Position numbers and translations under genes: made by a program. A model generated the notes under the pieces. It was not told the DNA's origin and searched no databases. It saw nothing but the letters and a program-made list of their open reading frames with translations. From positions 47,006,059 to 47,070,058 of the forward strand of contig OZ021732.1 of the NCBI GenBank assembly GCA_963978545.1: a DNA stretch of 64,000 nt, read 5' to 3'. The DNA comes from Linyphia triangularis. Its lineage: Eukaryota; Arthropoda; Arachnida; Araneae; Linyphiidae. This document shows positions 5,455-53,381 of this stretch, in pieces; positions within the stretch are counted from its first letter, which is position 1, and every line of letters starts with the position of its first letter.

Positions 5455-5708
5455 CACCAGTAAGTGGTACCGTGACCATGCCTTTGATAAGTGAATGGAA
5501 GAGCTGTTTAATTAAAATATGCATTTATTTATTATGAGTAATTTAAATTTTGAATTCGGTAATTGTATTTTAATTTGATTTGACATGTCGCGTTTTAGCT
5601 TGTATTTTACTAGCGCCACCAATCAGTTTAATTTATTACACATAATTACACAAAAGTTACGATTTTAGGAATTGAAAGTTTGTAACGTAACCTCTTTCTC
5701 GGAAAATT
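5455..5708 (+). other. Leader between LTR end and gag, with possible primer-binding site
   Basis: This untranslated stretch starts right after the end of the direct repeat and runs to the gag ATG. A TGG-initiated motif, TGGTACCGTGACC (5465-5477), lies ten bases inside it and could be the tRNA primer-binding site. The cognate tRNA is not identified. The rest is AT-rich with no gene. Confidence 0.45.
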
Positions 5709-14956: not shown

Positions 14957-15827
14957 TATTTCAAAGCGGTAAGTAAAAAAAAGATAGGGTCAATGACCAC
15001 TTTACCAAATCGAGGAAAAAAAAAATTATGGAAAATTTTTGTGAGGCAAACAAAAGATAGTTTAATGTACAAATATGTAGCATAGATGGATGCGTTCATC
15101 GGATAACGTAATCTAAAGACAAAAGAGAGGCCAATTTAGCTTCTTTTTACACGGATTTTATGCATGAATATTCAAAATTCATAAATTCCTTTTTTCTATA
15201 TTGTTATATATATTTTTTTTTTTTTTTTCATATTAAACATCTGATTGGATGCGTGTGTACAATATGAGTTCTTTGTTTACTTCAATGGGTAAGAAGTAAA
15301 CACAGGAAAAAATTAGTAGAGGCACGACAGAGAGAAATGGATAAATGCTAGAATGTTATTATGAGTTATTCATTAATTTCTTTATCTCACTCATTACAAT
15401 TTAACAGTTTATGCTTCGAATTACTGAAGATAACATGTAATGCAAACAAGCAGACCGAGAAATAAATGATTTGAATTTCTTTTATTACTATGCAATTGTT
15501 TTTTTTAAGTAATGCATGACCAGTTTACTCAGTAATAATAATTACTGTTGTAAATAGCATAAGGATTGTTTTTTTTTTCTTCAAGCACCTTAGTTTATTT
15601 CGCCAAATATAGTATGGCATTATAATTTTATTGTAGGGAATATTATAAGCGTGATGAATTTTTTTTTTTATGTATATAGAGAGGGATTTTTTTTTCTTTC
15701 TTTTGTCTTAAAAGTAATTAACAATTATAGTGGTTAATTAACAGCAAAAGCAAATTCTTTTGATTATAATTTTTTTTTTTATTTAAAAAGAAAAAAGCTG
15801 GGAGATTGAAGTGTGAATTTAATTGAC
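14957..15827 (+). other. AT-rich non-coding stretch upstream of env copy B
   Basis: This is the counterpart of 1-872, with T-run length differences and a few substitutions. I see no gene. Confidence 0.6.
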
Positions 15828-18490
15828 ATGCACATATGTTACCTTGCAGTTTGTACGCCATGGACGAGAACACTCATTTGCATAATAATATGCACAATAA
15901 TTCCAGCATCTCATCATCCGCAGATCTGCACGTTTAAAGATAGTAATTTTCAATGTCAATCAATTGCAAAACACGCTCTCCAGATATATAACTTACCACC
16001 TCAGACTTGCGGAGTTCACAGTTGCCGAAATTGCATCATTGGCAAACAAACGTTCATAATTACACCCGAAGCAGAACTAGTCGAACCAAGCAGATTTTTA
16101 CTGCAAACTAATAACTCTGCTAGATATACTACAAGCACATTTTACCAGTGCGCACAACCAGACTGTGATTGCACGCAAGGAACTTGCAATGGCGATAAAG
16201 TATTTTGTGGCATGTATGGATGTGCAGAAAAAAGTCAGTGTTCCTGTGAATTAACACGCGAAACACCTATACTCTTGCACATTACAGATTCGCAGACAAT
16301 TGTCAACCCTCAGTTACTGACATTGTTTCTATGTTTGTTTGAAAAACAAACACTACACTCCAGACGACTGCACGAGTTTGAAACGGCTCATTTTATGCAA
16401 AATAACATTACAATGGAATTCCTTGATCCAGTACTTACATTGCCATCTTCCGGACGTGTCGTTCTGCGCACTAATACCTATGAGATGTTACTTACAGTTC
16501 CGGGGGATAGAGAACTAACGATACCTTTCGAGCTTCTAGCGTATAAAACTACGCTTACGATTATTTTTGTCAGTGACGAGGACATTCCATTTCTGCAAAA
16601 ATACAACTGTCCGGCAAAAGTTACTGTAGACTGAACACATGTGTTTTTTGTTTCGAAAATTTCAAAACAGTTAGATGTTGGAGTTTATTTGCAAGAAACC
16701 TACTTTATTGCTTCTTTTTGTTTCTTTTCATGTTAACACTAATAATGATTAAGACGATCATCAAAACACTAATTTATACAGTAAAACTTTTAATTTTACC
16801 AGTTCGAATAGTAGTGCGAGTGCTCAAAATGACTTTACGATTCTTCCTAATATTAGGAACATATCTTGGAAAGACGGTCAGACACACTGGAGAAACCGTT
16901 ATGCACCGCATTGAGAGACGTGCTCTCAATAACGATTTTTATAGAGTCGCAACGATCGCCGTCATCGCATGTCTTGTAGTAGGCGAGGCTCAGGCTGAAT
17001 GTTCGAACACTAACATAATCCATTCTAATATAGAAAGGTGTGAAGTTTCCACTGATCCATTAGTGCAGAACTGTATATTACAGAATACTGCCGAATTGAC
17101 TCCCAGGGGTATACAGCATTCTTCGTGTCTATGGTTCAAATCGAAAGAAGGTAAACAATTGTTTCATTTAGAGGTGCGACTGGACGCTGTCCACTGCAAA
17201 TTTTCGACAGCTCGTCAATATTTCACTTTCGCGGTTACAGCTAAGCATATCTCGCAATTATCATGCAGCCAAAACCGGTTTTGCAGTTGGGGTTTACACT
17301 GTAAGAGAGCATCGTATTCAGGATTGCATTTTGAAGCAGAAACGGAGGCATCACGAGACTACCCTGGCTTATCAACGTGTCAAGCAAGCACGCAAGGATC
17401 CGGCTGTGCGATCGTACACAGATCAGGCTGCAGTTTTCGTCGAACCTACTACATCCCAGACCTCACACAGGCATATGAGGTATTAAACATCACAGGCTTC
17501 ACATGTTCTTATCACATTGGAGTCACACATTCGGAAAATGGGACGATCTCAAGAGTACAACTACAAGACAAGGCAACGCTTCCAGGAGGCATACAAATAC
17601 ATCTCATTGGCAGTTACAACCAACCTCAACTCCTGATGTCAGAGTCTTTGGTCCAGAGTGTCAGAGATCCTTCCGAAGGTCACCTCCTAAAGACAGCAGA
17701 CAGAAATTCACCGTTTGCAAACATGGTCGGAGCAGTACAAGCAAACACCAGTTACACCAAGCATTTTATCTTCGCTGAAAATATGACGACCTGTGATTTC
17801 TACGAAGATCAACTGCGTTGTACGGAGATGCCCCAGGCCATTCGAAGGATGCAAGAGAAACAACATCATAGGTTACCATTGACAAGAGATCTGCATACAT
17901 TACATCTACAACAAGGGAAGCTCACGTCAACATTGCTCACCTCAGCAGCCATCAAAATACAGCTTCTTTTCGCAGACTACAAGATATCAGTCCAGAGATC
18001 ATCGGTTTGCCCACTTTTCCATGATTCCGAGTTTCAAATCAAAGGGTGTTACAGATGCTCCATTTTCGCAGAACTATCATTTCAAGCCTTATCTTCCTGC
18101 AACAACGGACTTGCCGAGGTTACTTTGCAACGACTCACCACATACACAAGGGCTGTTGACCTTACTCAGCAATTTACAACACATCAAGTTCGTTTTCTGG
18201 CAGACCAACAATGTTACGAAGAAAAACTTTGTCTTCAGGCACATACCAACATACAGTGCAAACAATTTTCATTCTGTCTCGATGAACCATCGGTCCAACT
18301 CATGAAACTTTTACATAACCACACAACGACGCAAGCGCAGGACTCACCGGGTGGTATTTTCGATTGGAAGTTTTTTCCAACATTAAATTCCGCGTTCTTT
18401 TTCTTAAAAATGGGGGGTGCATTGGCCTTGTTTGTGGGACTCATGGTGACACTGTTTTCAACACTAGTGACATGCTGTGCCCGGAGATAA
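15828..18490 (+). pseudogene. env: Envelope-like polyprotein, copy B (one-base frameshift)
   Basis: The same gene as at 873-3536, but one base is missing near 16579-16580. The first frame then closes at 16634, within the Gn-like part. The second part of the protein stays open from about 16718 to 18490 and covers the hydrophobic block, the Gc-like ectodomain and the membrane anchor. Other differences from copy A are few, for example one Asp-to-Asn change near 17781. The break sits upstream of the second internal signal-like stretch, so the intact polyprotein cannot be made from this copy by normal translation. Confidence 0.85.
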
Positions 18491-19081
18491 ACTAACACTT
18501 ATGCTTCTTTTGAACTATTGCAAGAATGAAGAAAACACACTTCAAATTTTGAACATTTCTTTTATACTTTTATTCTAATTATGTTCTTGCATACTTACAT
18601 ATTTACTGCACTCATTTATGATATTCTTTTCTAGATTCAACATAATATGTATTTTAAGTGCATTACAGAGTGCATCTCGTTGTACAGTGTGGTAATACCA
18701 CTAAACAGAGAGCAATTAAGGAAGCTGAAGCATAGAGCTCGACAAAACGTTGCAAAATTTCTTTTCTTTTGCATCTATTTGACAGACGTCCTAGACATTG
18801 GACACATACAAAACACTTATACAGGGAGATGGACTCTGAATTTTTTTTTATTATCTTTCTAATTTTTAGTACTATTTCTATTATTCACCTTTATGATTTT
18901 AGGTCATACATTACTTGTATTGACCAGTATTTAACCTTATATTTGTATTTATCTTGTATAACAATGCAATTCTTTTGGTTAGGTGTTCAGCTGCCTTAGA
19001 TAAACACATACGCTCACTTTGGGATTTTCTGGATTTCGATCTACTTACACGACCTCATCTTTTAGACGCAAGGTTTAGTTT

Positions 19082-19112
<31 letters not shown>

Positions 19113-20411
19113 GAAAAATAATTTTGACCAGGGCCAAAAAATTTTTTAGCGGAAGGCGGGTGAATGAGATGTTAGTCCGCTGAACTGAACATCAGGAATT
19201 TCGGAAAGTCCAGAAAAAAGCAAAGAAGTCATTTAGCCCTTTTACAAAGGCTAGGCCGATAGAAGGTACTTTTGGAACATATGTTGGCGGGTTACTTTCA
19301 AAAGCCCGGGATTACAGGGAATGTTAGGAGTCAAAAGGTCAGTTGTGTATGAAAAGTCGGGAGATCTTGAAAAGGGGGTTTACATTCACTATTTCGTGTG
19401 AAGGCAGAATCGAGCAGGAGCCAGACGTCATAAATACTCGGGGGCTTTTCAATTTTAGGTGAGGTTTACAAAGGCTGGCGCCAACTTGACGTTAGTTTGA
19501 CAGCAAGATGGGATTCAAAATTATTGGGGTCCAGCTGCATTGCAGCTGTGAAAAAGAGGGGATCGGAAATTTCTAGGCGATACACGGAATTGACGTCAGA
19601 AGGTCCGAGTCCAGTCTCTGACGCTTGTGGATCAGAGGCGGGATCTCAGTGATGTTAGGGTTCACGATTGGCTATAGTTCAAAACCAGAGATTCGAACCT
19701 ACGGATCCTGGGACTGGCTGGAGGTGAATTTGACCCCGCCTTGGTCTTGACGTAAAAGGGGGGGACACGAGAGCACGAGGAGACATTCGGAGTTTTTTGC
19801 TAAAAGTTGAGTGTGGGAGTTAATCGGCGAACGCCGCAGGCCCGTTTGGATTATAGGTTTTCCCGAGGATGGCAGAATACGCCATGACGAGTATGGCCCC
19901 AGGTACCGTGTTGTCATTTATTCACATTTTAAGCTAATCTTCCAGCTTTCTGACTTTAACTTTTGAGAATTTTTAATATTAAATCTTAACCACAAAGTAG
20001 CGAGGGCAACTGAATTCTAACCAAAATGACTATTTAAATGAAATGTGTTTGAATATGTGTAAACAGTACCCGATTTTGGGTGTTTTAATATAAACTTGAT
20101 AGGATTGGTAATTTAAGATCGACTTCGTAAAGTAGATTCAATGTTTAAAATTGGTAAAAGAGAAGCAATCATTAATTGTTAAACTTAACCTTCTATTCTG
20201 TAAAGTAAACCTAGTATTTAATAAATTTGTTTGTTATCACTTCGGTTATGTTTATTGAACAGCTTTTTCAAACCACACTCATCAAAGGAGTTCCACTATG
20301 CGATCTTTCGGCAATGTTTATTACTAAACATTTCACCCTTTAAGGAGTTTTAATCTTATCTATGTAAGAACCTGAGGTATGTCTGCAGTTTAATTAACAC
20401 AGACGGCACCA
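18491..20411 (+). repeat. Post-env DNA and probable LTR, copy B
   Basis: The counterpart of 3537-5454, with the same TATA and AATAAA motifs and the same CA end. It differs from copy A by T-run length near 19085-19112 and a few single-base changes. The unique flank starts at 20412. Confidence 0.6.
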
Positions 20412-21119
20412 GCCCAGTGCGTGGTATCACCAGCCATTTAAAGACTTCAGTCAGTCACTACTCTGTGAACATGAATGCGCATGCGTAATTGGTGATTTTA
20501 AGGGGGTGATCACATTCCGTATATAGCATTCCGTTGGAAAATAAACGAAAATTTTGCACTTTTTCAAAAAAGGACGCTATTTTCAAAGAAAAAGGGCAGG
20601 GAGGTAGCTCCCTCCCTTCGAAATACGGCTAGGATGGTCTCTGATTTTATAAAATGGTGGATTATTTTTTTTAAATTTAACCATGATGTGCCCACCCTTG
20701 AAATCATGCATGAGGTTAATTCAGTGGGGCGCAATTGATTTTCATTGCGTGTTTACGCAGATTTCACTCATTTTGGCGAACTCAGCTTCCAATAATCTCA
20801 ATTTAGTTTATTGTGTACAAGTAAACTAAAGAACTTTTATGCAGATACGTTAGTTTCCTAACACTTGTTAAGTGTAAAAAATGTGAATGAAATTAAAAAG
20901 TTTCGGAAAAATTTTCCAATATATACTAGTATTGAAACTTTTTTCCAAGAACATAACATCGGCTTTGTGGGAAAAGGTCCAAATTCCACTTTAAGTTTCA
21001 AACCACTTTTCGGTATTTTGGAAACAGGAAGAGAATCCCACATTGGTAAGTAAAAGCTGCTGACTATATATTAATACTGCTGTTCAGTACTGGTATTATC
21101 TTAGCTGTTTGTTCAACTA

Positions 21120-23560: not shown

Positions 23561-23566
23561 GTTGAT
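23561..23566 (+). repeat. Target site duplication GTTGAT (left)
   Basis: GTTGAT directly precedes the AGTAGTTAG end of the palindrome and is repeated in the same orientation right after the other end (38426-38431). Six-base duplications are characteristic of few transposon classes, among them Polinton/Maverick. Confidence 0.8.
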
Positions 23567-23589
23567 AGTAGTTAGAAAATGCCGATCCT

Positions 23590-23725
23590 GAGCCATGGCG
23601 CAATGCGCAAGGGACGGGGGACGATGACGTCACCGGAAGGGGGCGTGACCGGATATGACGTCACAGGAAGTGACATCACCGGATATGCCGTCACCGGAAA
23701 TCATGTGACCGGAAGTGGAGTGGAG
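23590..23725 (+). promoter_or_regulatory. Left tip with NRF1-, CRE- and ETS-like motif cluster
   Basis: Within 130 bp there are GCGCAATGCGC (one base off an NRF1 palindrome), several TGACGTCA or near-CRE sites and repeated ACCGGAA cores, often joined as GTCACCGGAA. The mirrored right tip (38275-38395) has a perfect GCGCATGCGC at 38385-38394. Such clusters are typical of animal Pol II promoters or of protein-bound transposon ends. Function is inferred. Confidence 0.5.
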
Positions 23726-23797
23726 TTGTTTCCTTCCTGCTGCTGTTTTAGTTTCGGTTTCATTATAAGCTGTTTGTGTATGACGCCACAGTGTGAA

Positions 23798-24415
23798 TGA
23801 CGTCATAATGTGTTTTATATCAAAGTTTTGAGTGGTGGCAACACTTTTTAGTTTCAGTTTATCTAACAGACGGAGTTGAGTTGTTCTAGGACTGCTTCTT
23901 AGTGAATAAGTTAGAGTGATAGGCTTTTATTGCGTGACGTCACAGTAGATATGACGTCATAATGTGTTTTATATCAAAGTTTTGAGCGGTGGCAACACTT
24001 TTTAGTTTCGATTTACCTTTAAGATAGAGTTGAGTTGTTCTAGGACTGCTTGTAAATGAATAAGTTAGAGTGATAGGTTTTTATTGCGTGACGTCACAGT
24101 AGATATGACGTCATAATTTGTTTTATATCAAAGTTTTGAGCGGTGGCAACACTTTTTAGTTTCGATTTACATTTAAGATGGAGCTGAGTTGTTCTAGGAC
24201 TGCTTGTAAACGAATAAGTTAGAGTGATAGGTTTTTATTGCATGACGTCACAGTAGGTATGACGTCATAATGTGTTTTATATCAAAGTTTAGAGCGATGG
24301 CAACACTTTTTAGTTTCAATTTACCTTTAAGATGGAGCTGAATTGTTCTAGGGCTGCTTCTAAACGAATAAGGTAGAGTGATATGTATTTTTACTAATGA
24401 CGTCACAGTGGGTAT
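23798..24415 (+). repeat. Four 154-bp tandem repeats with CRE palindromes (left arm)
   Basis: Units begin at TGACGTCAT at 23798, 23952, 24106 and 24260, with the next boundary at 24415. Each carries TGACGTCAC shortly before the boundary and a conserved GGTGGCAACACTTTTTAGTTT core. Units are similar but not identical. Confidence 0.85.
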
Positions 24416-25406
24416 GACGTCATTCTATGTTAAGATTTACGTTTTAAGTGGTGATAACATTGGATATATACCAAATTTAGTTTTCAGGTGTTGGCAACGA
24501 GTTCTGATCGGTCAGCTAAATGCTCGCTTGTGACTGATAAGTTTTAAACATGTGACCAAAAGTTAACTCCTGATTGACTGTTTGGTTTTCTAGCGAGTTA
24601 CTTACATATCCTTTAGCCAAGTTAAAATACCTGCAACAAAGTTACACAAAAAAAAATGTTAAATTTGAAAAGTTAATAAAAGGAAGGCCATTTGCTAAGG
24701 GTCTAAAGAACCCTAACCCCGAGCTACACGTGACATTTCAATATTCTACCAAACAATTGTTAAAATATCGACTATCGGACGTTGCCTTCTTGGTAACTCA
24801 TCTACCCACCCCCCTTCCCTAACTAATTTTGAATAAGTTAAGACCTTAGAAAATGTTAATTATTTTGAAGTTAAATTTTAAAAGTGAGGACCCACCTCCA
24901 GCCCAATACCTCTTTTAGGAAGAATTGGTACCGCCTCACTCCACCCTATCAACAAAAAAACAAAAAACACAAAAAAAAAACTTATTTCAAAGAACGTATA
25001 TTTCCTTGAAATATGAGGTCACTAACCAACCATCCAATAATATCTTTTAAGAAGACATCATTACCTTAAATCCTAAACAATTTTAAATTTTAAAAAATCT
25101 GAAAAGAAGACTTGTGAGAACGTATATTTCTCTCATGAATTAAATTTAATGATCACATACAAAATCCTGAAAAAAAATTAACGTTAAATAAGTTTTTAAA
25201 AATTTAGTTAAAGTAATATTTTAGTTAAATTAAGGCTTAAAGAGATAAAAAAATAAAAAAAATTTAAGGATTAAATGAATGATTTAAGGAATTTTGAAGT
25301 GACCATAGGCATAGCTGGTTATGCCATCTTCCAGCAGATACCGCTTGTCGTCATAGGCCGACAAGGCTCTCTTGGTTTGTTGGAGTGAGAAGATGTTTAA
25401 AAATTC

Positions 25407-25593
25407 ACTTACCGAATAATCGAAACGAAATCTGCGAAGCTAAAATAACCGTGAATAACTACACAAGTACGAACAAAATCGCGATGAGAAAAAAAAAACA
25501 CGAAGTATTAAACACGTCTTTCACACTCAGGTATCTAAGTAGAAATGGCGAGACGGCAACCGGTAGCGTCTATATATGAAGGGTGATCACGTG
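25407..25593 (-). promoter_or_regulatory. Promoter-like cassette with TATA box and splice donor (left arm)
   Basis: On the minus strand a CACGTG (25588-25593) is followed by TATATA (25571-25576) and, about 160 bases on, by a strong donor GTAAGT (25407-25412). It faces the left tip. It is the mirror copy of the right-arm cassette at 36553-36739, so it is conserved in both arms. Confidence 0.4.
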
Positions 25594-28500
25594 ACTTCAC
25601 CGACCAATCAGGTTTCACGGTAGAGGGTGCTACTGACTATCGACCCGTCAGAAGGGAGGGGAGCGAGACTAGGGATGTTTCAACACGCTTCAACGCGTTT
25701 GCGAGTTGAGTTGTTGTGTAACGATCTTGCTTGAAACAGTTAAAGTGATAGATAATTTGTTCGTGACGTCATAGTGTAGCGAATGGGTTTTTAGCGTAGA
25801 CAGTTGTTGCAATTGGAGTAATTATGAAATTTATTAAATATAAAGATAATATTTAGTAATAATTATCAGATTTTATTATTATTATTATAAAAAATAAACT
25901 TATAAAAAAAATGAACGTGAAAATTTACTTTACGAATAAAAATCATGTCTTTAAAATGTGTACGAATATCACTAAATAAGAGAAAAAAGTAACATACTTA
26001 AACTCTTTAAAATAAATAACTTTAACATTAACGTAAAAAATTTACTTTTCACATAAAAATCACTTTAAAATGAGTAAAAATATCGCTAAATAAGAGAAAA
26101 AAAAGTAACTTACTTAAAATTTCTAAGATAAATATTTAACCTTTACTCGAAAATTCCCTTCATATATAAAAATCACGACTTTAAAATATGACATGCAAGA
26201 GAAAAGTAACGTACTTAAACTTTCTACGACAAATAACTTTAACATTAACGTAACATTTTACTTTACACATAAAAATCCCGACTTTAAAATGTGACGTGTA
26301 AGAAGAACTAGCATACTTAAAATTTCTACGACAAATAAATTTAACCTTTACGCTAAAATTTACTATATACATAAAAATCATGTCTTTAAAATATGTAAAA
26401 ATATTGCTAAATAAAAGAAGAAAAAAAAACTAACATACTTAAACTTTGCACGACAAATAACTTTAGCATTAACGTAAAAACTTACTTCACATATAAAAAT
26501 CACGACATTAAAATGTGACATGTAAGAAGAATTAGCATACTTAAAATTTCTACGATAAATAATTTTAACATTTGAGTGAAAATTTACTACATATATAAAA
26601 ATCATGTATTTCAAATGTGTAAGAATAACGCTAAATTAGAGAAAAAGAAATACTAAAAATTTATAAGGTAAGGAATTGAAACAATATGCGAAAATTTATT
26701 TCACGCATAAAATTTTTATCTTTAAAATGTGTAAGAATAATGCTAAATTAGAGAGAAAAAAAATAACATACTTAAACTTTCTTCGACAACAATTTAAACA
26801 ATACGCGACATTTTCATACACAATTATTTTCTTAGGTTAATGTTAAATAATGGGAAATTTAACAGAATAAAAATTTCAAAGATAAAGAATTTTAACCTTT
26901 ACACGAAAATTTACCTCACAAAAATATCATATCCTTAAACTTTAACGTGACAATTTACTCTTCATATACAATTAAACTCTTAGGTTAATGTTAAATAAGA
27001 AAAAAAATAATATACTTAAAATTTCTAAGATAAACATAACGTAAAAATTTCGTATCATGTGTTTAAAATGTAACATATAAGAGAAAAAAACTAACATACT
27101 TGAACTTTCTATAGCAAAGAATTTAAGCATTAGCGTAAAAATTCACTTTAAATATAAAATTCACATCTTTAAATGGGAAGATAAGCAGGTGACGGTAATT
27201 AGCCAATCAGGGTAGCGGTAGGTGATACGCCATTCGCCGGCATTTTTAGATCGGAGGATGAGTCACGCTAAAACTTGTTGGAACAGGTCAAGAGATTTGT
27301 ACAGCAAGAACAACAGCATCGACGCGCAAGCAGCGGGTGATGCTGTGATGTGTCAGCAGGTCTTTGAGATGATCGTTTTCCTACTTTGCCGTTTTCATAA
27401 TGAAATGTTTGTGAAAACTTGGAATGAATAAAGTGGATTTCAAAGACATATTAGTAAGGGAAGGTAGAATTCGCATGGACTTTCTTCCAAAAAGTATGAT
27501 TCACTTGGAGAATTTAAGATCATTTCTACTTGAAAACTTTTCTATTATTTAAAACATTGAATATTGTTCAAACTCAGTGGGATTATATGCTACAATACGG
27601 GTAAAACTTAACAAAATTGTTACATAGAAGAAAAATAGTAAGAGATTTAAAATAAATATTAGTTATAGATACTCCAAAGAAAAAATTTCACCTCTACTTT
27701 TCAATCGGAAAATCAATACAAGTTGGAAATTTATGTTACTTCAAGAAAGACTTAGACAATTTACTTTGTAATAATATACGTTAAGGTGTCGTATTAACTC
27801 GTGCAATACATGCTGACTAAGGTTTATTTTACTTGAAAGGTGAATTGGGGGAAAATATTAAATAAATTGTAGATATTAAATACATTGTAGATATGCATTC
27901 AAGTTTTGAAAATCACCTGCAAGACTTTTAAAACATCTTAAGATAAATTGAAAGAAACTTTTTATACTCTGAAAGGAAATCACAAGTAATTTAGTTAACT
28001 TTTTTCATGGTAACACTCATATTCAACGACATGTTTTTAAAATTTAACCTTCTTTACATGAAAATAGTTATAAATTTTTTCAATCTAAGATGCGATATAC
28101 TATTATTTCTAACATATATGTTACGAATTGTGTAAAGTTTTTAAAAGAGTATATGCAAATCACCAATCAGAAACATAAAAATCTAACATCAATCAAACAC
28201 ACTAAAATAATAAGATATTTTCCTTAGTGGAAATAGTTAACTACTCATGTGATGGAATGTACTTAGAAAATTTAAATACTGAAAAAAGTTTGCTAGGCAA
28301 ACTTAAAGAATATATATTTTTTTTCTTGTGAAAAACTAGCATAAATTTGAGAAATATAGAGTTTGTTACTACGTAAAATTGAACATCATCTGGACAAACT
28401 AAATTATACATGAATTTTTTTTATTTGAGAGGTGCTGACAATATATCATTAATACAGAGATTTTTAACTTCCACCCATAATTTCTAAATAACTTATACAT

Positions 28501-29505
28501 AAATTTCAGAAAACTGAAACGGAATGTGTTTTACAAGACGCTTATTTTGTAAGATGAATATTCAATATTAATATAACTGAGCAAAGTTCATTACGGAAAA
28601 AACTTGTAAAAGATACTTATATTTTGAAAATAGTTTGAAATATCCTTTTAAATTTATGAATGCTCGCTTTCGAAAGACACAAATAAAACTGATATTACAC
28701 ATGATAATTAACACATGCATAACATTAATCAAACAAAGTGGAATTTTTATTGCTTGTGACCGATAACTTTTCAGTGAAGTAGAACTTACATAGGAAATTT
28801 GTGCAAACTTTTTCAACTTTTAAACCAAGTATTATGTAAAATTATAAATTACGATAGGAAATAGCACACTTCAGAATCGGAACAAGTCTTCTAGTTAAGC
28901 TAAATTTATTTCTCAAGGAATTGAAAGCATACCAGACAAGTCCTTATCATTTCGCATCTTTTCTCATGTTGCAAGAAGACATACTTTGTAAAAGATCGTC
29001 GTTGCACTTAACAAAAATCAGTAAAAATAAATGTATTTTCTATGGCAAAGATAAAACTTCACAACTTAATTACTGAAATTTAGCTAAGTTGCATATGGTT
29101 TATTCACATAACTCGCATATGCTTCGAATGTTGAAATATATTTGTCAGTTGAAATCAAACTAATCGAAAATAAATGCTACCTACATTTTCAAGTCGGAAA
29201 TTACTATTAAATAAACTTTACATGTAAAACATTGTCATGTTAAAAAGAAAAATCTACAAAAATGTAAATGATAATTTTACTGTTGGTACATAAATGATGA
29301 ATAATTTATGATTTTATTCTAGGCAAACGTTTTATTGTCTAACAGAGAACTTAAACTTTAGCAGAAAAATAAAAAAATACAATTTTTATATCCTATCATG
29401 CTTGTCGAAAATTGAATTTATTAGCTGTTGTAATAGATTTTTATTGTCCAAATTTCTATAGTTTTTCTTCCCGGTGCAATAAAATTAAGTTCATGTGTAA
29501 TGATT

Positions 29506-29546
<41 letters not shown>

Positions 29547-32500
29547 AATCTTATAAATTTAATGAAATTATTATGACCTAAGAGATTGAGTGAACTGAAT
29601 AAATCAATGATGTAAATTTAAACAGTGACTTGAACTGATACATACTATAACTGTAAAGAAGTATGACAAAGTGATAGATGAAGTAAAAATAGAAGTGAAT
29701 GAAATGTGTTGAAAAAAGTTGAAGACGACAAGAAATTCGTAATTGAGAATTATCATTGACTTATATTAACTTCGTTTTTCTTGCTTATGACAAGAAAATA
29801 CACTCTTTCTTATTAAGAACCAACTTGATATCTTATCATAGAATGACAATGATGAAATATCTATACATTAAAAAAAAAATACCAAACTTAGACATAGCAA
29901 ATTTCTTGAAATTCATGTATAATGTGAGAAGTTTTACTGGAAATATAGAAGATACAACATTGAAAGATGTGAATGTTTCGAAGTACTTTATCAGAAATAA
30001 AAAAAAAATGCGCTGAGATTCGCTATAAAAAATTTTAGGAGAAAGTTTAAACAAAATTTAAAATCAAACATGCTTTTAAATGGGAACACATATATTAAAA
30101 CTATAGCACATTAAACAATTTATATTACGTCATCTCAGTTGTATCAAACTGAATAACATGAAAAACAACCACAAACTGAATAAACATGAAAATTATCAAT
30201 ATATGTGGAAAAGTTTCCTTTTTTCACATATAAAAAAAATAACACATTGACGTACGTTAAGATCACGAAACATGCATAATCATATACCGATAAGAGCAAC
30301 CAATGTTGCGGGGAGATATTCACATGATGGTCAATATCCCATGAATAAATTGATTGATTGAATTTCTAATGCTAATTCCAATAGTATTCCACGTAACTTC
30401 AACTTCATATGTTACACTATAGATATATTTATTTTTCAAATATATTGACTTTCGAAAAATCATCCTTCAATATAAGAATGATCATAGTAAGAATAAAAGA
30501 AAAGATACTAAGCATTGATTTAAAGTGTATTTATTTCAACTTAGCAACAAATCATATGCTTGAAACGAAAATTGCTTCGAACCAAAGTATAACCATCCAA
30601 TTTCATTGATTCCTACAAGGACATTTTTCTCATCTAGTAATTGAATTTTTTTTTTCTCATACACATTATAAGTGATGTCCAATCAGGTGTAGAATAGTTG
30701 AAGATATCCGACCTCTTTCTAAATATTAATAAGTCACTGTTGAAAAACTTATAAAAATTTCAATTTACACTTAAAGTTTTTTTTTTTATATATATATTTC
30801 AAAGAATTTTTTCAAATCAATATGTATATTTAAATACTGAAACTTATTCACTTCAATAAATGTATGTTTAAGTTATAAAACTCTTCGTATGTATTGAAAA
30901 ATTGTAACTTTTCGTCTTCTTCGTATAAATCGATAACTTATACACTAGTTCTTCATCAATTAATCTTCTAAGTAAATATTTCAAAGCTAAAAACATACTT
31001 ATAGCTCTGCATTTGTAACAAGTTAAATTGTACATGTTTCATGTGAAAGTTACAAAATTTCAGATATTTTCATGGAAAACATATAAAATTTTAATTTCAC
31101 GAGAAACATGTACAATTTAACATGTTCAAATGCAAAGCTATAAGTATGTTTTTAGCTTTGAAATATTTACTTAGAAGATTAATTGATAAAGAACTAGTGT
31201 ATAAGTTATCGATTTATACGAAGAAGACGAAAAGTTACAATTTTTCAATACATACGAAGAGTTTTATAACTTAAACATACATTTATTGAAGTGAATAAGT
31301 TTCAGTATTTAAATATACATATTGATTTGAAAAAATTCTTTGAAATATATATATAAAAAAAAAAACTTTAAGTGTAAATTGAAATTTTTATAAGTTTTTC
31401 AACAGTGACTAATTAATATTTAGAAAGAGGTCGGATATCTTCAACTATTCTACACCTGATTGGACATCACTTATAATGTGTATGAGAAAAAAAAAATTCA
31501 ATTACTAGATGAGAAAAATGTCCTTGTAGGAATCAATGAAATTGGATGGTTATACTTTGGTTCGAAGCAATTTTCGTTTCAAGCATATGATTTGTTGCTA
31601 AGTTGAAATAAATACACTTTAAATCAATGCTTAGTATCTTTTCTTTTATTCTTACTATGATCATTCTTATATTGAAGGATGATTTTTCGAAAGTCAATAT
31701 ATTTGAAAAATAAATATATCTATAGTGTAACATATGAAGTTGAAGTTACGTGGAATACTATTGGAATTAGCATTAGAAATTCAATCAATCAATTTATTCA
31801 TGGGATATTGACCATCATGTGAATATCTCCCCGCAACATTGGTTGCTCTTATCGGTATATGATTATGCATGTTTCGTGATCTTAACGTACGTCAATGTGT
31901 TATTTTTTTTATATGTGAAAAAAGGAAACTTTTCCACATATATTGATAATTTTCATGTTTATTCAGTTTGTGGTTGTTTTTCATGTTATTCAGTTTGATA
32001 CAACTGAGATGACGTAATATAAATTGTTTAATGTGCTATAGTTTTAATATATGTGTTCCCATTTAAAAGCATGTTTGATTTTAAATTTTGTTTAAACTTT
32101 CTCCTAAAATTTTTTATAGCGAATCTCAGCGCATTTTTTTTTTTTATTTCTGATAAAGTACTTCGAAACATTCACATCTTTCAATGTTGTATCTTCTATA
32201 TTTCCAGTAAAACTTCTCACATTATACATGAATTTCAAGAAATTTGCTATGTCTAAGTTTGGTATTTTTTTTTTTAATGTATAGATATTTCATCATTGTC
32301 ATTCTATGATAAGATATCAAGTTGGTTCTTAATAAGAAAGAGTGTATTTTCTTGTCATAAGCAAGAAAAACGAAGTTAATATAAGTCAATGATAATTCTC
32401 AATTACGAATTTCTTGTCGTCTTCAACTTTTTTCATCACATTTCATTCACTTCTATTTTTACTTCATCTATCACTTTGTCATACTTCTTTACAGTTATAG

Positions 32501-32598
32501 TATGTATCAGTTCAAGTCACTGTTTAAATTTACATCATTGATTTATTCAGTTCACTCAATCTCTTAGGTCATAATAATTTCATTAAATTTATAAGATT

Positions 32599-32640
<42 letters not shown>

Positions 32641-35600
32641 AATCATTACACATGAACTTAATTTTATTGCACCGGGAAGAAAAACTATAGAAATTTGGAC
32701 AATAAAAATCTATTACAACAGCTAATAAATTCAATTTTCGACAAGCATGATAGGATATAAAAATTGTATTTTTTTATTTTTCTGCTAAAGTTTAAGTTCT
32801 CTGTTAGACAATAAAACGTTTGCCTAGAATAAAATCATAAATTATTCATCATTTATGTACCAACAGTAAAATTATCATTTACATTTTTGTAGATTTTTCT
32901 TTTTAACATGACAATGTTTTACATGTAAAGTTTATTTAATAGTAATTTCCGACTTGAAAATGTAGGTAGCATTTATTTTCGATTAGTTTGATTTCAACTG
33001 ACAAATATATTTCAACATTCGAAGCATATGCGAGTTATGTGAATAAACCATATGCAACTTAGCTAAATTTCAGTAATTAAGTTGTGAAGTTTTATCTTTG
33101 CCATAGAAAATACATTTATTTTTACTGATTTTTGTTAAGTGCAACGACGATCTTTTACAAAGTATGTCTTCTTGCAACATGAGAAAAGATGCGAAATGAT
33201 AAGGACTTGTCTGGTATGCTTTCAATTCCTTGAGAAATAAATTTAGCTTAACTAGAAGACTTGTTCCGATTCTGAAGTGTGCTATTTCCTATCGTAATTT
33301 ATAATTTTACATAATACTTGGTTTAAAAGTTGAAAAAGTTTGCACAAATTTCCTATGTAAGTTCTACTTCACTGAAAAGTTATCGGTCACAAGCAATAAA
33401 AATTCCACTTTGTTTGATTAATGTTATGCATGTGTTAATTATCATGTGTAATATCAGTTTTATTTGTGTCTTTCGAAAGCGAGCATTCATAAATTTAAAA
33501 GGATATTTCAAACTATTTTCAAAATATAAGTATCTTTTACAAGTTTTTTCCGTAATGAACTTTGCTCAGTTATATTAATATTGAATATTCATCTTACAAA
33601 ATAAGCGTCTTGTAAAACACATTCCGTTTCAGTTTTCTGAAATTTATGTATAAGTTATTTAGAAATTATGGGTGGAAGTTAAAAATCTCTGTATTAATGA
33701 TATATTGTCAGCACCTCTCAAATAAAAAAAATTCATGTATAATTTAGTTTGTCCAGATGATGTTCAATTTTACGTAGTAACAAACTCTATATTTCTCAAA
33801 TTTATGCTAGTTTTTCACAAGAAAAAAAATATATATTCTTTAAGTTTGCCTAGCAAACTTTTTTCAGTATTTAAATTTTCTAAGTACATTCCATCACATG
33901 AGTAGTTAACTATTTCCACTAAGGAAAATATCTTATTATTTTAGTGTGTTTGATTGATGTTAGATTTTTATGTTTCTGATTGGTGATTTGCATATACTCT
34001 TTTAAAAACTTTACACAATTCGTAACATATATGTTAGAAATAATAGTATATCGCATCTTAGATTGAAAAAATTTATAACTATTTTCATGTAAAGAAGGTT
34101 AAATTTTAAAAACATGTCGTTGAATATGAGTGTTACCATGAAAAAAGTTAACTAAATTACTTGTGATTTCCTTTCAGAGTATAAAAAGTTTCTTTCAATT
34201 TATCTTAAGATGTTTTAAAAGTCTTGCAGGTGATTTTCAAAACTTGAATGCATATCTACAATGTATTTAATATCTACAATTTATTTAATATTTTCCCCCA
34301 ATTCACCTTTCAAGTAAAATAAACCTTAGTCAGCATGTATTGCACGAGTTAATACGACACCTTAACGTATATTATTACAAAGTAAATTGTCTAAGTCTTT
34401 CTTGAAGTAACATAAATTTCCAACTTGTATTGATTTTCCGATTGAAAAGTAGAGGTGAAATTTTTTCTTTGGAGTATCTATAACTAATATTTATTTTAAA
34501 TCTCTTACTATTTTTCTTCTATGTAACAATTTTGTTAAGTTTTACCCGTATTGTAGCATATAATCCCACTGAGTTTGAACAATATTCAATGTTTTAAATA
34601 ATAGAAAAGTTTTCAAGTAGAAATGATCTTAAATTCTCCAAGTGAATCATACTTTTTGGAAGAAAGTCCATGCGAATTCTACCTTCCCTTACTAATATGT
34701 CTTTGAAATCCACTTTATTCATTCCAAGTTTTCACAAACATTTCATTATGAAAACGGCAAAGTAGGAAAACGATAATCTCAAAGACCTGCTGACACATCA
34801 CAGCATCACCCGCTGCTTGCGCGTCGATGCTGTTGTTCTTGCTGTACAAATCTCCCGACCTGTTCTAACAAGTTTTAGCGTGACTCATCCTCCGATCTAA
34901 AAATGCCGGCGAATGGCGTATCACCTACCGCTACCCTGATTGGCTAATTACCGTCACCTGCTTATCTTCCCATTTAAAGATGTGAATTTTATATGTAAAG
35001 TGAATTTTTACGCTAATGCTTAAATTCTTTGCTATAGAAAGTTCAAGTATGTTAGTTTTTTTCTCTTATATGTTACATTTTAAACACATGATACGAAATT
35101 TTTACGTTATGTTTATCTTAGAAATTTTAAGTATATTATTTTTTTTCTTATTTAACATTAACCTAAGAGTTTAATTGTATATGAAGAGTAAATTGTCACG
35201 TTAAAGTTTAAGGATATGATATTTTTGTGAGGTAAATTTTCGTGTAAAGGTTAAAATTCTTTATCTTTGAAATTTTTATTCTGTTAAATTTCCCATTATT
35301 TAACATTAACCTAAAAAAATAATTGTGTATGAAAATGTCGCGTATTGTTTAAATTGTTGTCGAAGAAAGTTTAAGTATGTTATTTTTTTTCTCTCTAATT
35401 TAGCATTATTCTTACACATTTTAAAGATAAAAATTTTATGCGTGAAATAAATTTTCGCATATTGTTTCAATTCCTTACCTTATAAATTTTTAGTATTTCT
35501 TTTTCTCTAATTTAGCGTTATTCTTACACATTTGAAATACATGATTTTTATATATGTAGTAAATTTTCACTCAAATGTTAAAATTATTTATCGTAGAAAT

Positions 35601-36552
35601 TTTAAGTATGCTAATTCTTCTTACATGTCACATTTTAATGTCGTGATTTTTATATGTGAAGTAAGTTTTTACGTTAATGCTAAAGTTATTTGTCGTGCAA
35701 AGTTTAAGTATTTTAGTTTTTTTTTCTTCTTTTATTTAGCAATATTTTTACATATTTTAAAGACATGATTTTTATGTATATAGTAAATTTTCGCGTAAAG
35801 GTTAAATTTATTTGTCGTAGAAATTTTAAGTATGCTAGTTCTTCTTACACGTCACATTTTAAAGTCGGGATTTTTATGTGTAAAGTAAAATGTTACGTTA
35901 ATGTTAAAGTTATTTGTCGTAGAAAGTTTAAGTACGTTACTTTTCTCTTGCATGTCATATTTTAAAGTCGTGATTTTTATATATGAAGGGAATTTTCGAG
36001 TAAAGGTTAAATATTTATCTTAGAAATTTTAAGTAAGTTACTTTTTTTTCTCTTATTTAGCGATATTTTTACTCATTTTAAAGTGATTTTTATGTGAAAA
36101 GTAAATTTTTTACGTTAATGTTAAAGTTATTTATTTTAAAGAGTTTAAGTATGTTACTTTTTTCTCTTATTTAGTGATATTCGTACACATTTTAAAGACA
36201 TGATTTTTATTCGTAAAGTAAATTTTCACGTTCATTTTTTTTATAAGTTTATTTTTTATAATAATAATAATAAAATCTGATAATTATTACTAAATATTAT
36301 CTTTATATTTAATAAATTTCATAATTACTCCAATTGCAACAACTGTCTACGCTAAAAACCCATTCGCTACACTATGACGTCACGAACAAATTATCTATCA
36401 CTTTAACTGTTTCAAGCAAGATCGTTACACAACAACTCAACTCGCAAACGCGTTGAAGCGTGTTGAAACATCCCTAGTCTCGCTCCCCTCCCTTCTGACG
36501 GGTCGATAGTCAGTAGCACCCTCTACCGTGAAACCTGATTGGTCGGTGAAGT

Positions 36553-36739
36553 CACGTGATCACCCTTCATATATAGACGCTACCGGTTGCCGTCTCGCCA
36601 TTTCTACTTAGATACCTGAGTGTGAAAGACGTGTTTAATACTTCTTGTTTTTTTTTTCTCATCGCGATTTTGTTCGTACTTGTGTAGTTATTCACGGTTA
36701 TTTTAGCTTCGCAGATTTCGTTTCGATTATTCGGTAAGT
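36553..36739 (+). promoter_or_regulatory. Promoter-like cassette with TATA box and splice donor (right arm)
   Basis: CACGTG (36553-36558), TATATA (36570-36575) and a consensus splice donor GTAAGT (36734-36739) follow one another on the plus strand, facing the right tip. The stretch between TATA and donor is less AT-rich than its surroundings. No downstream coding exon was recognised, so it could start a non-coding transcript. Confidence 0.4.
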
Positions 36740-37723
36740 GAATTTTTAAACATCTTCTCACTCCAACAAACCAAGAGAGCCTAGTCGGCCTATGACGACA
36801 AGCGGTATCTGCTGGAAGATGGCATAACCAGCTATGCCTATGGTCACTTCAAAATTCCTTAAATCATTCATTTAATCCTTAAATTTTTTTTATTTTTTTA
36901 TCTCTTTAAGCCTTAATTTAACTAAAATATTACTTTAACTAAATTTTTAAAAACTTGTTTAACGTTAATTTTTTTTCAGGATTTTGTATGTGATCATTAA
37001 ATTTAATTCATGAGAGAAATATACGTTCTCACAAGTCTTCTTTTCAGATTTTTTAAAATTTAAAATTGTTTAGGATTTAAGGTAATGATGTCTTCTTAAA
37101 AGATATTATTGGATGGTTGGTTAGTGACCTCATATTTCAAGGAAATATACGTTCTTTGAAATAAGTTTTTTTTTTTGTGTTTTTTGTTTTTTTGTTGATA
37201 GGGTGGAGTGAGGCGGTACCAATTCTTCCTAAAAGAGGTATTGGGCTGGAGGTGGGTCCTCACTTTTAAAATTTAACTTCAAAATAATTAACATTTTCTA
37301 AGGTCTTAACTTATTCAAAATTAGTTAGGGAAGGGGGGTGGGTAGATGAGTTACCAAGAAGGCAACGTCCGATAGTCGATATTTTAACAATTGTTTGGTA
37401 GAATATTGAAATGTCACGTGTAGCTCGGGGTTAGGGTTCTTTAGACCCTTAGCAAATGGCCTTCCTTTTATTAACTTTTCAAATTTAACATTTTTTTTTG
37501 TGTAACTTTGTTGCAGGTATTTTAACTTGGCTAAAGGATATGTAAGTAACTCGCTAGAAAACCAAACAGTCAATCAGGAGTTAACTTTTGGTCACATGTT
37601 TAAAACTTATCAGTCACAAGCGAGCATTTAGCTGACCGATCAGAACTCGTTGCCAACACCTGAAAACTAAATTTGGTATATATCCAATGTTATCACCACT
37701 TAAAACGTAAATCTTAACATAGA

Positions 37724-38190
37724 ATGACGTCATACCCACTGTGACGTCATTAGTAAAAATACCTATCACTCTACCTTATTCGTTTAGAAGCAGCCCTAGA
37801 ACAATTCAGCTCCATCTTAAAGGTAAATTGAAACTAAAAAGTGTTGCCATCGCTCTAAACTTTGATATAAAACACATTATGACGTCATACCTACTGTGAC
37901 GTCATGCAATAAAAACCTATCACTCTAACTTATTCGTTTACAAGCAGTCCTAGAACAACTCAGCTCCATCTTAAATGTAAATCGAAACTAAAAAGTGTTG
38001 CCACCGCTCAAAACTTTGATATAAAACACATTATGACGTCATATCTACTGTGACGTCACGCAATAAAAGCCTATCACTCTAACTTATTCACTAAGAAGCA
38101 GTCCTAGAACAACTCAACTCCGTCTGTTAGATAAACTGAAACTAAAAAGTGTTGCCACCACTCAAAACTTTGATATAAAACACATTATGA
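37724..38190 (-). repeat. Three 154-bp tandem repeats with CRE palindromes (right arm)
   Basis: TGACGTCAT-type boundaries lie at about 37724, 37879, 38033 and 38188 and enclose three units, the mirror of the four in the left arm. The arms therefore differ by exactly one repeat unit. Confidence 0.85.
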
Positions 38191-38425
38191 CGTCATTCAC
38201 ACTGTGACGTCATACACAAACAGCTTATAATGAAACCGAAACTAAAACAGCAGCAGGAAGGAAACAACTCCACTCCACTTCCGGTCACGTGATTTCCGGT
38301 GACGGCATATCCGGTGATGTCACTTCCTGTGACGTCATATCCGGTCACGCCCCCTTCCGGTGACGTCATCGTCCCCCGTCCCTTGCGCATGCGCCATGGC
38401 TCAGGATCGGCATTTTCTAACTACT

Positions 38426-38431
38426 GTTGAT
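38426..38431 (+). repeat. Target site duplication GTTGAT (right)
   Basis: Direct copy of 23561-23566, immediately outside the CTAACTACT end of the palindrome. Confidence 0.8.
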
Positions 38432-40637: not shown

Positions 40638-43600
40638 CTACCGTGAGTCAATTTTTGCTCTTATATATCCATCTCTTGCGGTTGAACCACAGACATTTTG
40701 AGCCGATTCGGTCACCAGTTTCACAGTTCTTTCCACTGCTTGCGTGTGACAAGGAAGCCGGGGAAAGTCGATAACCGGGTCTACTTTACTATTTGGTTCA
40801 TCTTCAGATGCCTTCCGTATAAAGTCGTCTTTGAGAGAGTAACTGGAAACATGTTTTAACAAGGGAGGTTCAGTTACGTCATTTTCAGGCCATGAAATCA
40901 TATCAATGTAATCCTTTGCATCGAAGTTTATCTTTGGAACTTTAAACTTCCTGACTCCGCCTCTACTTTCTGTTCTTGCTTTTAAAACACGTCGTAAACC
41001 AAGTTCTCTTTGACAAAAGGAGATTTTCTGGAGCCGCAAAATACCCGTTTCTTTGAATAACCGGATCTATAACGTTCATGAGATCGTCAGAGAGATAGCG
41101 TGAATATGAGATAAGGTTAAACAGATGTTTGGAACCATAAGTACATGAAGGTTTTAACTTAATATTAAACCACACAGGCACATACACTTTCACAATGTAC
41201 TTAGCCAGAGTCTTAAGATTTTGAGTTGGATTTCCAGTTGCCACATACTATCTAAGCAAGCGGTTGGCTAGTGTCAACCACCTGGAGTGAGCAAGCTTTC
41301 CAGGGTTTCGTAAAGATAAATCTAGGGAGCAATTTCCACTTGATACAGCAATACACATATCCAATAAATATTTCTGATCTGTACTTAAATCATTTTTGTC
41401 CGCCAAAAGAGGAAGGTTATTTTCAATTGACAAGAAAGTAACCACAGGAAGATTAGTACAGTTTTCTAGCTGATGAACTATTTCACCTTTAAACTAATTG
41501 GGTCAATTTGTTTTACCATCTAAATGACAAAAAAGATGTCGCAATGGTAGCTCCATTACCATGGAACAAACAAATTAACCACTGTAACGGCCTTCCTATT
41601 TCCCTTTCCATCAAAGAAATCACACCATTATTATGTCCAGTGTTTACAACGGTTCCATCACACCCAATAGAAGTAAAGTTTAAAAGTTGTTTGTTGTGTT
41701 CTCTATCTTCAAGAAACTCCTGTATACTGTCTGCTATGTCTTTTCCAGTGCCAGATTTAGGTGTTACGTGGCCTAAAAACTTTGAGCTTGGTTCCTCTAT
41801 TAGTGAAACGTGCTCTTCTGAAATAACTTTTTTGTATAATTTACTTCCTTTCTTTTCTTGAACAATTGTTTTGTCTTTTCTTCCATCAAAAAACAATCCT
41901 CTATTTTCAGTTATATGGTTATAACGAGTGTCATTAATGAGATATCTTCGATTGGTTGAACTTGCTCGTCTAATTTTCCTCCTGTCTATAACGTTGGTTT
42001 AGTCTTCTGTTATTACACCAAAATCCTGTAAAGCAGCACTAGCTATAGCTGCAGCATTTCTATCTGATATTCCGATACGGTCAGCAATAGAAGCTGCAGA
42101 TGGCAATTTAATGCGCATTTGAGTGATTTTCTCTTCTTTCCGTTTTGAAGGGCCTGGTAGATGCATCTCTTCTTGTATATTTGAAGGACCTGGTTGGTTT
42201 GCATCTTCTGGTATCGAACACTGCTGTTCTTCAGCGCTGTCATTGTCGCCAGTAACCGTTTCTGATACACTAGTATTTTTTGTCCGTTCTTTATTAAACT
42301 TGACTATTCTTTGTAGTTCTTTAATTTTTCTTGCTTCTTTCTTCCTCAAAGCGCTTGTGGTAGCTATATCAACATTACCTATCACCATTTTCCTGTCAGA
42401 ACGTTGATCGCTTAGAAACTTGTGTTCCATAACTGGTACTTTTCTTCCTTTATACAAGTACAAGTATTAAAGGTTACACACTTACATGCAGCAATATGAA
42501 ATAAACCAGGGGCGTAGCCAGGATTTTTTTTCCGGGGGGGGCTGAGAAATTATAAATGTCAACTTCGGAAACAATGATTATCATTCAATAATTTACAAAT
42601 CAAAATTAATCAAACTAAAAAACAAACACTTTTTGGGATTGTAATACTTTTAGCAGATACAGCAGAATTAGTTACTGGAATTTTAAAACTATATGGTAAT
42701 TAATTTAGGTAAACATATTTCAATAAAAATATATTAATTATTAAAATATTATAATTAAATCAATTTATTATTGGAGTTATAATGTTATTGCCAACAATAA
42801 CCATTAACATTTGATTAACAAAGTCCCAATCTAACGCTTTAACGTCCCAATCCGCATGCCCAGCGAAATAGGTCAATAGTTTTAAAAAAAAGCTTTATGA
42901 TCGTAACCATTTATATAAAATAATTTATTTGAATAGTGAAAAATTGCACTTACCTTGAATGGGGTAGAAATAAGAAATTTCTTATATAGAGAATTCTGAA
43001 GTGTTTAACAAAGTGGGATCCGAGCAATGTTGAATATGTATACAATGCTACTCTTGGAGGTTGGAGATGTCTGCTAAGAAAGAGCCGGTTTGTGGCTTTC
43101 TGGAACCCCTTGTCACCTATTGTACTAGTGAACCAGAGTCCCTGGGGGGGGGATCATGGACTAGACAAGTACAAGATCCCCCCCCCCTCCCATCCCCAGG
43201 ACTCTGAAAGCCTTTTGTCGGACGAAAGTCCGCACCAACGAGACTAGACATCGCGTATCACGTCGACTAGTCATCACACCTGAAGTCTGGAGTGCTACAT
43301 TCAGGGCAGATTCAACTTAATTCGATTCGTTAATAATTCCAGTGCTTTGTCTGTCCAATTTCAAAAAATTAGAAAATAACGAAAACTTGTGTTAATTTCA
43401 AATTTTAATTATCCAAGCATAAATAGATCTATTTCTGACTTTCGAGGTTTGAAAATTTCGGAGGGGGCTGCAGCCCCATCAGCCACCCCCTGGCTACGCG
43501 CCTGACATAAACGTTCGACCTCGCCTCTACATTTCGAGAGGTTGCAGTCAAACTTTTCTGACCCTTTTCTGCTTTTTTCATTAGTAAAATTCTTTGGCTA

Positions 43601-52659: not shown

Positions 52660-53381
52660 TAAAACTTGTATGCCTGATGACATTAAAATTGATGAAAATA
52701 ATTTTTAAAAGAGTCATCTTCAAATTTAATAAATTATCTTCAACCAAAGTACAGGCTTTCTTAACCTTTTTCCCATCACATATATTACGTATGTAGAGAA
52801 AATCTTAACCTTTGCTATCATATAATATGTATACAGACATTCTTTATATAAAACGAAAATTGATTTATACGTTGTGATATGTTAAAATACGTTGTGATAT
52901 GTGTGTACAAGTCAGGGAAGATCACATTCCATATTAAATTTGTAAGGGTTAATTTTTTCTGATTTATTCTTGTTTTTCTTAACTCCTTTTGACACATTTT
53001 TATTATTTCATGGTACAATATGATATCATATGCAGTTCTCTTGATTTTTTTTTATGTATTCATGTGTCATAAAATTATGTATCATTCCTGAAAAATTCAT
53101 AAAATTATTGCTCACAGTTTCTGAGAAATCCATAAATTTATACATATAAAGATAATTTTGGACATGAGTATTAAAACTTGTATGCCTGATGACATTAAAA
53201 TTGATGAAAATAATTTTTAAAAGAGTCATCTTCAAATTTAATAAATTATCTTCAACCAAAGTACAGGCTTTCTTAACCTTTTTCCCATCACATATATTAC
53301 GTATGTAGAGAAAATCTTAACCTTTGCTATCATATAATATGTATACAGACATTCTTTATATAAAACGAAAATTGATTTATA
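52372..53381 (+). repeat. Tandem duplication, 512-bp period
   Basis: 52372-52869 and 52884-53381 (498 bp each) look identical and are separated by 14 bases, CGTTGTGATATGTT. Most of that spacer repeats the start of the unit. The unit starts inside the last codons of the Tc1-like transposase and runs past the right inverted end of that element. Perfect identity means a very recent event or an assembly artefact. Confidence 0.9.

Follow-up and report, generated by a model that had tools for sequence, protein, structure and literature searches.

A giant palindrome with Polinton ends and no recognisable gene in the genome of the spider Linyphia triangularis

A stretch of 64,000 nucleotides from the spider Linyphia triangularis (GenBank assembly GCA_963978545.1, contig OZ021732.1; hereafter the window, C13:47006059-47070058, with contigs written as C1, C2 and so on) contains at positions 23567-38425 a 14,859-bp element that is matched along its whole length by its reverse complement. 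How does such an element multiply without a recognisable gene, and what keeps its arms alike? We propose that the window copy (W) is a palindromic satellite, comparable to a defective-interfering genome, with no recognisable gene and the ends of a Polinton (Maverick) transposon, likely replicated and inserted in trans by the PolB and integrase of that Polinton, with arms that are probably rewritten from one arm via a hairpin in each round; we assign this reading a probability of about 0.7. By its ends and 6-bp duplications W belongs to a family of hundreds of copies, which have inverted repeats of variable length, several centres and arms that change in concert, and from these observations we infer hairpin replication and mobilisation in trans.

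The palindrome in the window

The initial annotation had described a near-perfect 15-kb palindrome, and minus-strand self-alignment (two overlapping pieces) bore this out over the whole element. Direct alignment of the arms revealed 19 substitutions, a few indels of 1-2 nt and one 154-bp tandem unit by which they differ; in a trimmed alignment 16 of 7,214 sites were unlike, a divergence of about 0.2%. A chance origin of the palindrome is excluded. Arms of about 7.4 kb each had been estimated, which holds for the left arm (7,449 bp) and overstates the right (7,299 bp), and the supposed spacer of about 25 bp proved to be an unpaired centre of 111 nt (31016-31126), of which 60 nt are the family's own asymmetric tip. 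The termini are 5'-AG and inverted (AGTAGTTAG...CTAACTACT). GTTGAT stands as a perfect duplication on both sides, as had been noticed, and the remaining flanking sequence is unlike on the two sides. The features of the element, in window coordinates, are:

23561-23566, no strand: left target-site duplication GTTGAT (from the sequence)
23567-31015, plus strand: left palindrome arm, no recognisable gene
23567-23588, plus strand: terminal 22-mer AGTAGTTAGAAAATGCCGATCC, the family end (from genome-wide matches)
23624-23713, plus strand: subterminal 15/30-bp repeats with cores TGACGTCA and CCGGAA (repeat scan)
23780-24423, plus strand: 154-bp tandem repeat, 4.2 copies
31042-31101, no strand: 60-nt asymmetric tip, an imperfect palindrome around TTTTCATG, where the halves differ most
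31127-38425, minus strand: right palindrome arm
37724-38213, minus strand: 154-bp tandem repeat, 3.2 copies (the other arm has one unit more)
38279-38369, minus strand: subterminal 15/30-bp repeats, inverted (repeat scan)
38404-38425, minus strand: terminal 22-mer, inverted copy (from the sequence)
38426-38431, no strand: right target-site duplication GTTGAT (from the sequence)

No gene was recognised within the element, in keeping with the earlier remark that it lacks a visible transposition gene. The longest open reading frame (ORF) of the left arm, measured stop to stop, is 98 aa, a chance length (200 mononucleotide shuffles: median 89, 95th percentile 113), and the 20 longest of the 22 left-arm ORFs of at least 55 aa gave no Pfam match above cut-off. 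PolB, rve integrase, capsid, protease and ATPase were not recognised in the element by ORF analysis and a Pfam scan of these 20 ORFs. Scanning the window with Rfam (at the gathering threshold) and for tRNAs found nothing.

An empty site was also sought. The joined flanks of W match a dispersed repeat, and some places run through the junction at equal length with 88-90% identity, among them C14:78022284-78022390 (107 bp over 107), C9:39625773 and C2:48004868 (109 over 109 each) and C3:47916057 (108 over 109). Judged by alignment length rather than by letters, these places would fit paralogous sites with a single target.

Same-ended relatives and a gene-bearing Polinton

Other copies with the same ends were searched for in the host assembly (1.35 Gb, 369 contigs) with the terminal 22-mer at up to three mismatches. 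The 384 forward and 384 reverse matches (768 in total; reversed-pattern control 6 and 5) uncovered hundreds of relatives, which the initial annotation had not foreseen when it proposed the search. Among the first 100 end places listed, all exact, at least 44 pairs were found; 23 of the 44 span 14.2-15.0 kb, and shorter same-ended copies of 7.9-10.2 kb are also present. The 6-bp duplications were checked in 38 pairs from a second listing of 100 end places: 36 were perfect and two had one mismatch. Their sequences revealed a target preference, NNYRNN, with a pyrimidine at position 3 in 35 of the 38 and a purine at position 4 in 30.

Nineteen same-ended copies were read (W, c1-c7, s1-s5, a1-a3, b1, d1 and d2), taken from the front of the list and not at random; c1-c7 are seven of the 23 pairs of 14.2-15.0 kb. 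Their duplications are perfect in 18 cases, s1 having one mismatch. The inverted repeats measure 95 bp in s1, 200 in s4, 358 in d1, 1,527 in d2, 2,073 in a3, 2,254 in s5, 2,488 in a1 and 4,391 in a2, and are near-complete in s2, s3, b1 and eight full palindromes (W and c1-c7; 14,276-14,859 bp). This range among same-ended copies, from 95 bp to 7.4 kb, is a new observation. The 60-nt centre was found 242 and 257 times on the two strands (499 matches at up to three mismatches; control 0 and 0). At least 47 exact centres on C1-C3 were among the matches listed, 9 inside one of the 44 exact-end pairs and 38 outside; seven of the nine lie within 3 bp of the midpoint and two are off by 76 and 135 bp.

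The gene-bearing relative d1 (C3:42191831-42205817; 13,987 bp) has the same 22-bp ends as W, inverted repeats of 358 bp and a perfect duplication, TACATC. Pfam matches above cut-off identified an rve integrase (7e-8), a chromodomain (7e-10), an adenain-like protease (Peptidase_C5, 1e-7) and an ATPase of the Adeno_IVa2/Pox_A32 type (5e-6), and d1 also contains ZnF-PolB (zinc-finger and PolB) ORFs 94-96% alike to those of a1. A 438-aa ORF is capsid-like: its named homologues are F54H12.2-like proteins, it had no Pfam, PHROG or PDB sequence match, and a model of a public homologue (mean predicted local distance difference test score, pLDDT, 70.7) resembles the double jelly-roll capsid proteins of Sputnik, mavirus and PBCV-1, with template modelling (TM) scores of about 0.5-0.6 and root-mean-square deviations mostly of 7-13. 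The best named matches of the Polinton proteins are spider proteins, many better matches being unnamed. Among the best of more than 3,000 candidates scored in each search, there were at least 115 integrase copies, 98-100% identical (109 of the 115 without stops), and at least 66 PolB relatives at 92-100%. Besides d1, two exact-end pairs contain an integrase at 98-99%.

Since the same-ended d1 carries integrase, PolB, protease, ATPase and a capsid-like protein, the palindrome family belongs to a Polinton, which the initial annotation had guessed from the ends and the duplication of W. With a 6-bp duplication, inverted 5'-AG termini and the ends of a gene-bearing Polinton, the W element fits a non-autonomous Polinton derivative, and sequence comparison suggests that the palindromes are likely moved in trans by Polinton enzymes. 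The outer ~1.4 kb of the W arm is 78-90% similar to the PolB-side end of d1. A second Polinton type lies at C2:49.88-49.90 Mb, where no AGTAGTTAG ends were seen in the 20 kb read.

Pair length was considered as a sign of palindrome status and rejected because an integrase is present in at least three of the 44 (d1, 13,987 bp; C3:37587288, 14,476 bp; C3:82956057, 14,772 bp). The size class shared by palindromes and integrase-bearing pairs may point to a length limit such as packaging. Long pairs were likewise rejected as autonomous elements: b1 (20,323 bp), the sole one read, turned out to be a palindrome interrupted on one side by an insertion with a 1,335-aa ORF that we take by eye to be Copia-like, and six other pairs of 16-28 kb are among the 44. 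At C3:41268233 and C3:41270059 two ends on the same strand, separated by 1.8 kb, have flanks that are reverse complements of each other (GGTGCC and GGCACC), the arrangement that an inversion by recombination between inverted ends would leave. An AlkB-like 2OG-Fe(II) oxygenase ORF occurs in both arms of the same-ended 10.2-kb element C1:74654788-74665024 (L032:1262-2248 and 8337-9362; Pfam E 6e-21 for the first copy) and is cargo duplicated along with the repeat.

Concerted arms and fold-back centres

Both arms of the eight full copies were aligned and variable columns were scored. Left and right arm agreed in every copy at 1,100 variable columns; 55 columns were discordant, none of which recurred in a second copy and 53 of which were private singletons. 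The inner-arm alignment gave 221 concordant and 25 discordant columns, with none recurring and 24 private. The pooled arm difference within copies was 58 of 56,973 sites (0.03-0.29% in the eight), and the difference between copies was 1.4-12.3% over whole arms, values that tandem-repeat misalignment may inflate, and 0.6-4.0% over the inner 3.9 kb. In the full copies, therefore, inherited changes are shared by the two arms, and changes confined to one arm are consistent with mutation after insertion. When b1, a2, s2 and s3 were added, 1,399 columns were concordant and 168 discordant, 147 of the latter private. The arms of b1 differ at 101 of 6,431 sites (1.57%), which indicates that arms drift once inserted. 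Concerted evolution of the arms in full copies is new here; that the two arms change together from generation to generation had not been foreseen.

The asymmetric tip is common to W, c2, c3, c6 and c7 among the eight full copies, the tips of c1 and c4 are partly symmetrised, and c5 has a different centre. The centres of s2, s3 and a2 also differ from that of W: in s2 and s3 the fold lies at about 4.2-4.4 kb on the scale of the window arm, with the centre of s3 at a 6-bp palindrome, ATGCAT, and a 177-nt spacer. In a1, the right half of d1 is followed by a 10-bp snap-back around a TTT loop (AATAATTATA-TTT-TATAATTATT) and then by the inverted right end of d1, so that a1 appears to be an inverted duplication of one helper terminus joined at a fold-back point. 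The orientation of the tip was discarded as evidence; both orientations occur, which is uninformative for a symmetric element able to insert in either direction.

Folding back extends to elements that bear PolB, which is likewise new. The element at C5:61418920-61433665 has ends as in W, a duplication ACTGTG and PolB copies 3,344 and 3,347 bp from its ends, as read from the ends and the PolB positions. A second palindromic family is represented at C3:60358020-60369070 (11,051 bp; read as L034-L036), with other ends (AGTAGTATA), a duplication AGCATC, arms 99.63% alike and a PolB (E 2e-23) that is cut at the centre. TGACGTCA repeats are found near the ends of the C5 element, and one at an end of the C3 element. 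Both palindromes suggest a snap-back origin from gene-bearing elements. Oppositely oriented integrase copies 11-16 kb apart (C6:26877561/26893223 and C1:87083125/87094388) are possibly palindromes of the integrase half.

A hairpin cycle and its alternatives

These observations can be accommodated in a model in which PolB would copy the linear element from a terminus and the strand, once past the centre, would fold on itself with the 60-nt tip as its loop. The folded strand would then be finished with its own first half as template, or the stem of the hairpin would be mismatch-corrected; by either route the arms would become identical and the loop would stay asymmetric. Integrase would insert the product at a 6-bp NNYRNN target, after which the arms would diverge. 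Snap-back while a gene-bearing element was being copied would have produced the first palindromes, an origin suggested by a1 and by the PolB palindromes on C5 and C3, and the common size near 14-15 kb would, speculatively, reflect a limit such as packaging. A bolder version, which we regard as possible but doubtful, is that Polintons here replicate as linear DNA with a folding displaced strand and so give rise to giant, near-perfect satellite hairpins, kept at about 14-15 kb by riding in Polinton capsids, made palindromic anew in each cycle and reinserted hundreds of times.

The main rival is that chromosomal gene conversion between inverted repeats kept the arms alike after insertion, which we consider unlikely, though it deserves more weight than any other alternative. 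The arms of Y-chromosome palindromes are kept alike in this way, close inverted repeats favour conversion, and it too produces changes concordant in both arms. The arms of b1, however, have drifted by 1.57%, although its insertion may have blocked pairing, and the 2.1-2.3-kb repeats of s5 and a3 are 97.4% and 98.1% alike. Moreover, the duplications differ at 2 of 228 bases (95% interval 0.1-3.1%), so that, within this wide interval, the insertions seem recent and not ancient ones evened out by conversion, and new centres would require a fold-back event in any case. The ages implied by duplications and arms (2/228 and 58/56,973) were compared and set aside, the events being too few to part conversion from equalisation at birth. 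It is far less probable that copying was ordinary and double-stranded and that the arms are identical merely because every copy is very recent: arm differences are few and duplications nearly intact, but 1,100 columns differ between copies while both arms agree, and independently copied arms would leave inherited discordances, and the discordant columns shared between copies were 0 of 55 among eight full copies and 6 of 168 among twelve.

Perfect inverted duplications are a known class of assembly artefact, and the palindrome is known here from the assembly alone. An inverted read or hairpin artefact is nevertheless unlikely, indeed scarcely credible, because 36 of 38 pairs have perfect duplications outside the palindrome and the arms carry private differences; unlike flanks, unequal numbers of tandem units and centres at or near the midpoint in the nine pairs checked also argue against it. 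We give just as little credence to the idea that the palindrome is of the Foldback/Galileo type and owes its mobility to a P- or Mutator-like transposase. Target duplications are 9 bp in FB and 7-8 bp in P-type elements, whereas those found here are 6 bp, and the same-ended relative carries integrase and PolB; no genome-wide search was aimed at P- or Mutator-type transposases. What speaks for such an element is the long, internally repetitive inverted ends of variable length, as described for Galileo (PMC3573991).

Several points weigh against the proposed hairpin cycle. The analysis, being of sequence alone, provides no direct evidence of extrachromosomal replication, a terminal protein or activity in trans, and chromosomal gene conversion could also yield concerted arms. 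In d1 there is no counterpart of the inner arm of W, which starts at about 1.4 kb from the end. Since only 9 of the 47 exact centres lie in exact-end pairs, most centres must sit in copies with diverged, incomplete or different ends, and s1, which has the centre but only one arm and no palindrome, means that 499 centres are not 499 proven palindromes. Six of the 168 discordant columns are common to two copies (columns 106-206, subterminal, each b1 with a2 or W) and represent homoplasy, tandem-repeat misalignment or inherited discordance. The count of fully symmetric tips genome-wide, 0 (YY) and 0 (XX) compared with 499 asymmetric ones, speaks for the cycle but comes from a search for exact symmetric patterns that misses tips of the c1/c4 type; such a count would be predicted for a tip that stays unpaired as the loop of an intermediate, or if perfect symmetry is lost. 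Finally, the Pfam match of the a1 PolB is weak (23.9 bits; cut-off 25.8) and a six-frame PolB profile search did not list a1; a protein search did find it, and PF03175-bearing homologues are a further basis for its identification.

Among known systems, Polintons share with W the 5'-AG termini and the 6-bp duplication, and the same-ended d1 has their rve-chromodomain integrase, PolB, adenain-like protease, ATPase and capsid-like protein; their inverted repeats are usually some hundred bp, whereas W is almost wholly two inverted arms without a recognisable gene. Yeast pGKL plasmids and adenovirus form palindromic deletion derivatives in which one terminus of a linear replicon is inverted-duplicated, but those are extrachromosomal and the spider elements are integrated and inherited. 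In origin-dependent inverted-repeat amplification (ODIRA), inverted copies result from template switches at short inverted repeats; this is a model of chromosomal amplification, not of how a mobile element lives and spreads. Adeno-associated virus has snap-back defective genomes that are likewise fold-back derivatives of a viral genome, arising from replication error (PMC8235507), whereas the spider elements are chromosomal, 14-15 kb long and present in hundreds of copies with transposon ends and duplications. For W, the match to the helper that this comparison implies is confined to the outer ~1.4 kb of each arm, at the PolB-side end. In Galileo, a Drosophila element of the P superfamily, copies differ in repeat length and the repeats take in internal sequence; the longest repeats occur in copies without transposase and reach 1,260 bp (PMC3573991), compared with 7.4 kb here, and the enzyme class is another. 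No description of palindromic or fold-back Polintons was found in the titles and abstract openings of the open-access PubMed Central papers listed, a scope outside which most subscription journals fall.

Elsewhere in the window, positions 1-20426 hold a Ty3/gypsy-type element whose envelope ORF (855-3536) is phlebovirus-G2-like (Pfam E 2e-29). Positions 1-5469 are repeated at 14957-20426 (99.6%) on either side of gag-pol-like ORFs, which looks like two tandem copies sharing one long terminal repeat. ORF pieces at 40638-42466 (minus strand; three scanned without a Pfam match) resemble by eye a decayed transposon gene. An exact 498-bp direct repeat lies at 52372-53381, its second copy starting 512 bp after the first, and a 123-aa ORF at 53786-54157, with no Pfam match, contains tandem arrays of 12 and 15 bp that encode the repeats GFGCGFGCG and YTGSG.

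To our knowledge, the replication of Polintons outside the chromosome, its form and their packaging are largely open questions. Arms apparently copied from one template in each cycle offer a sequence-level read-out of Polinton replication, and the family provides a defined DNA species to look for, a snap-back molecule of about 14.4 kb. Near-perfect palindromes with such long arms are generally thought to be unstable; our results suggest that those with 7-kb arms survive in large numbers in the genome of a eukaryote, where any of them may be a point of inversion or breakage. If the bolder version of the hairpin cycle is correct, the arm concordance recorded in the chromosomes would be the trace, on the scale of a genome, that a hairpin intermediate in the replication of a eukaryotic transposon has left.

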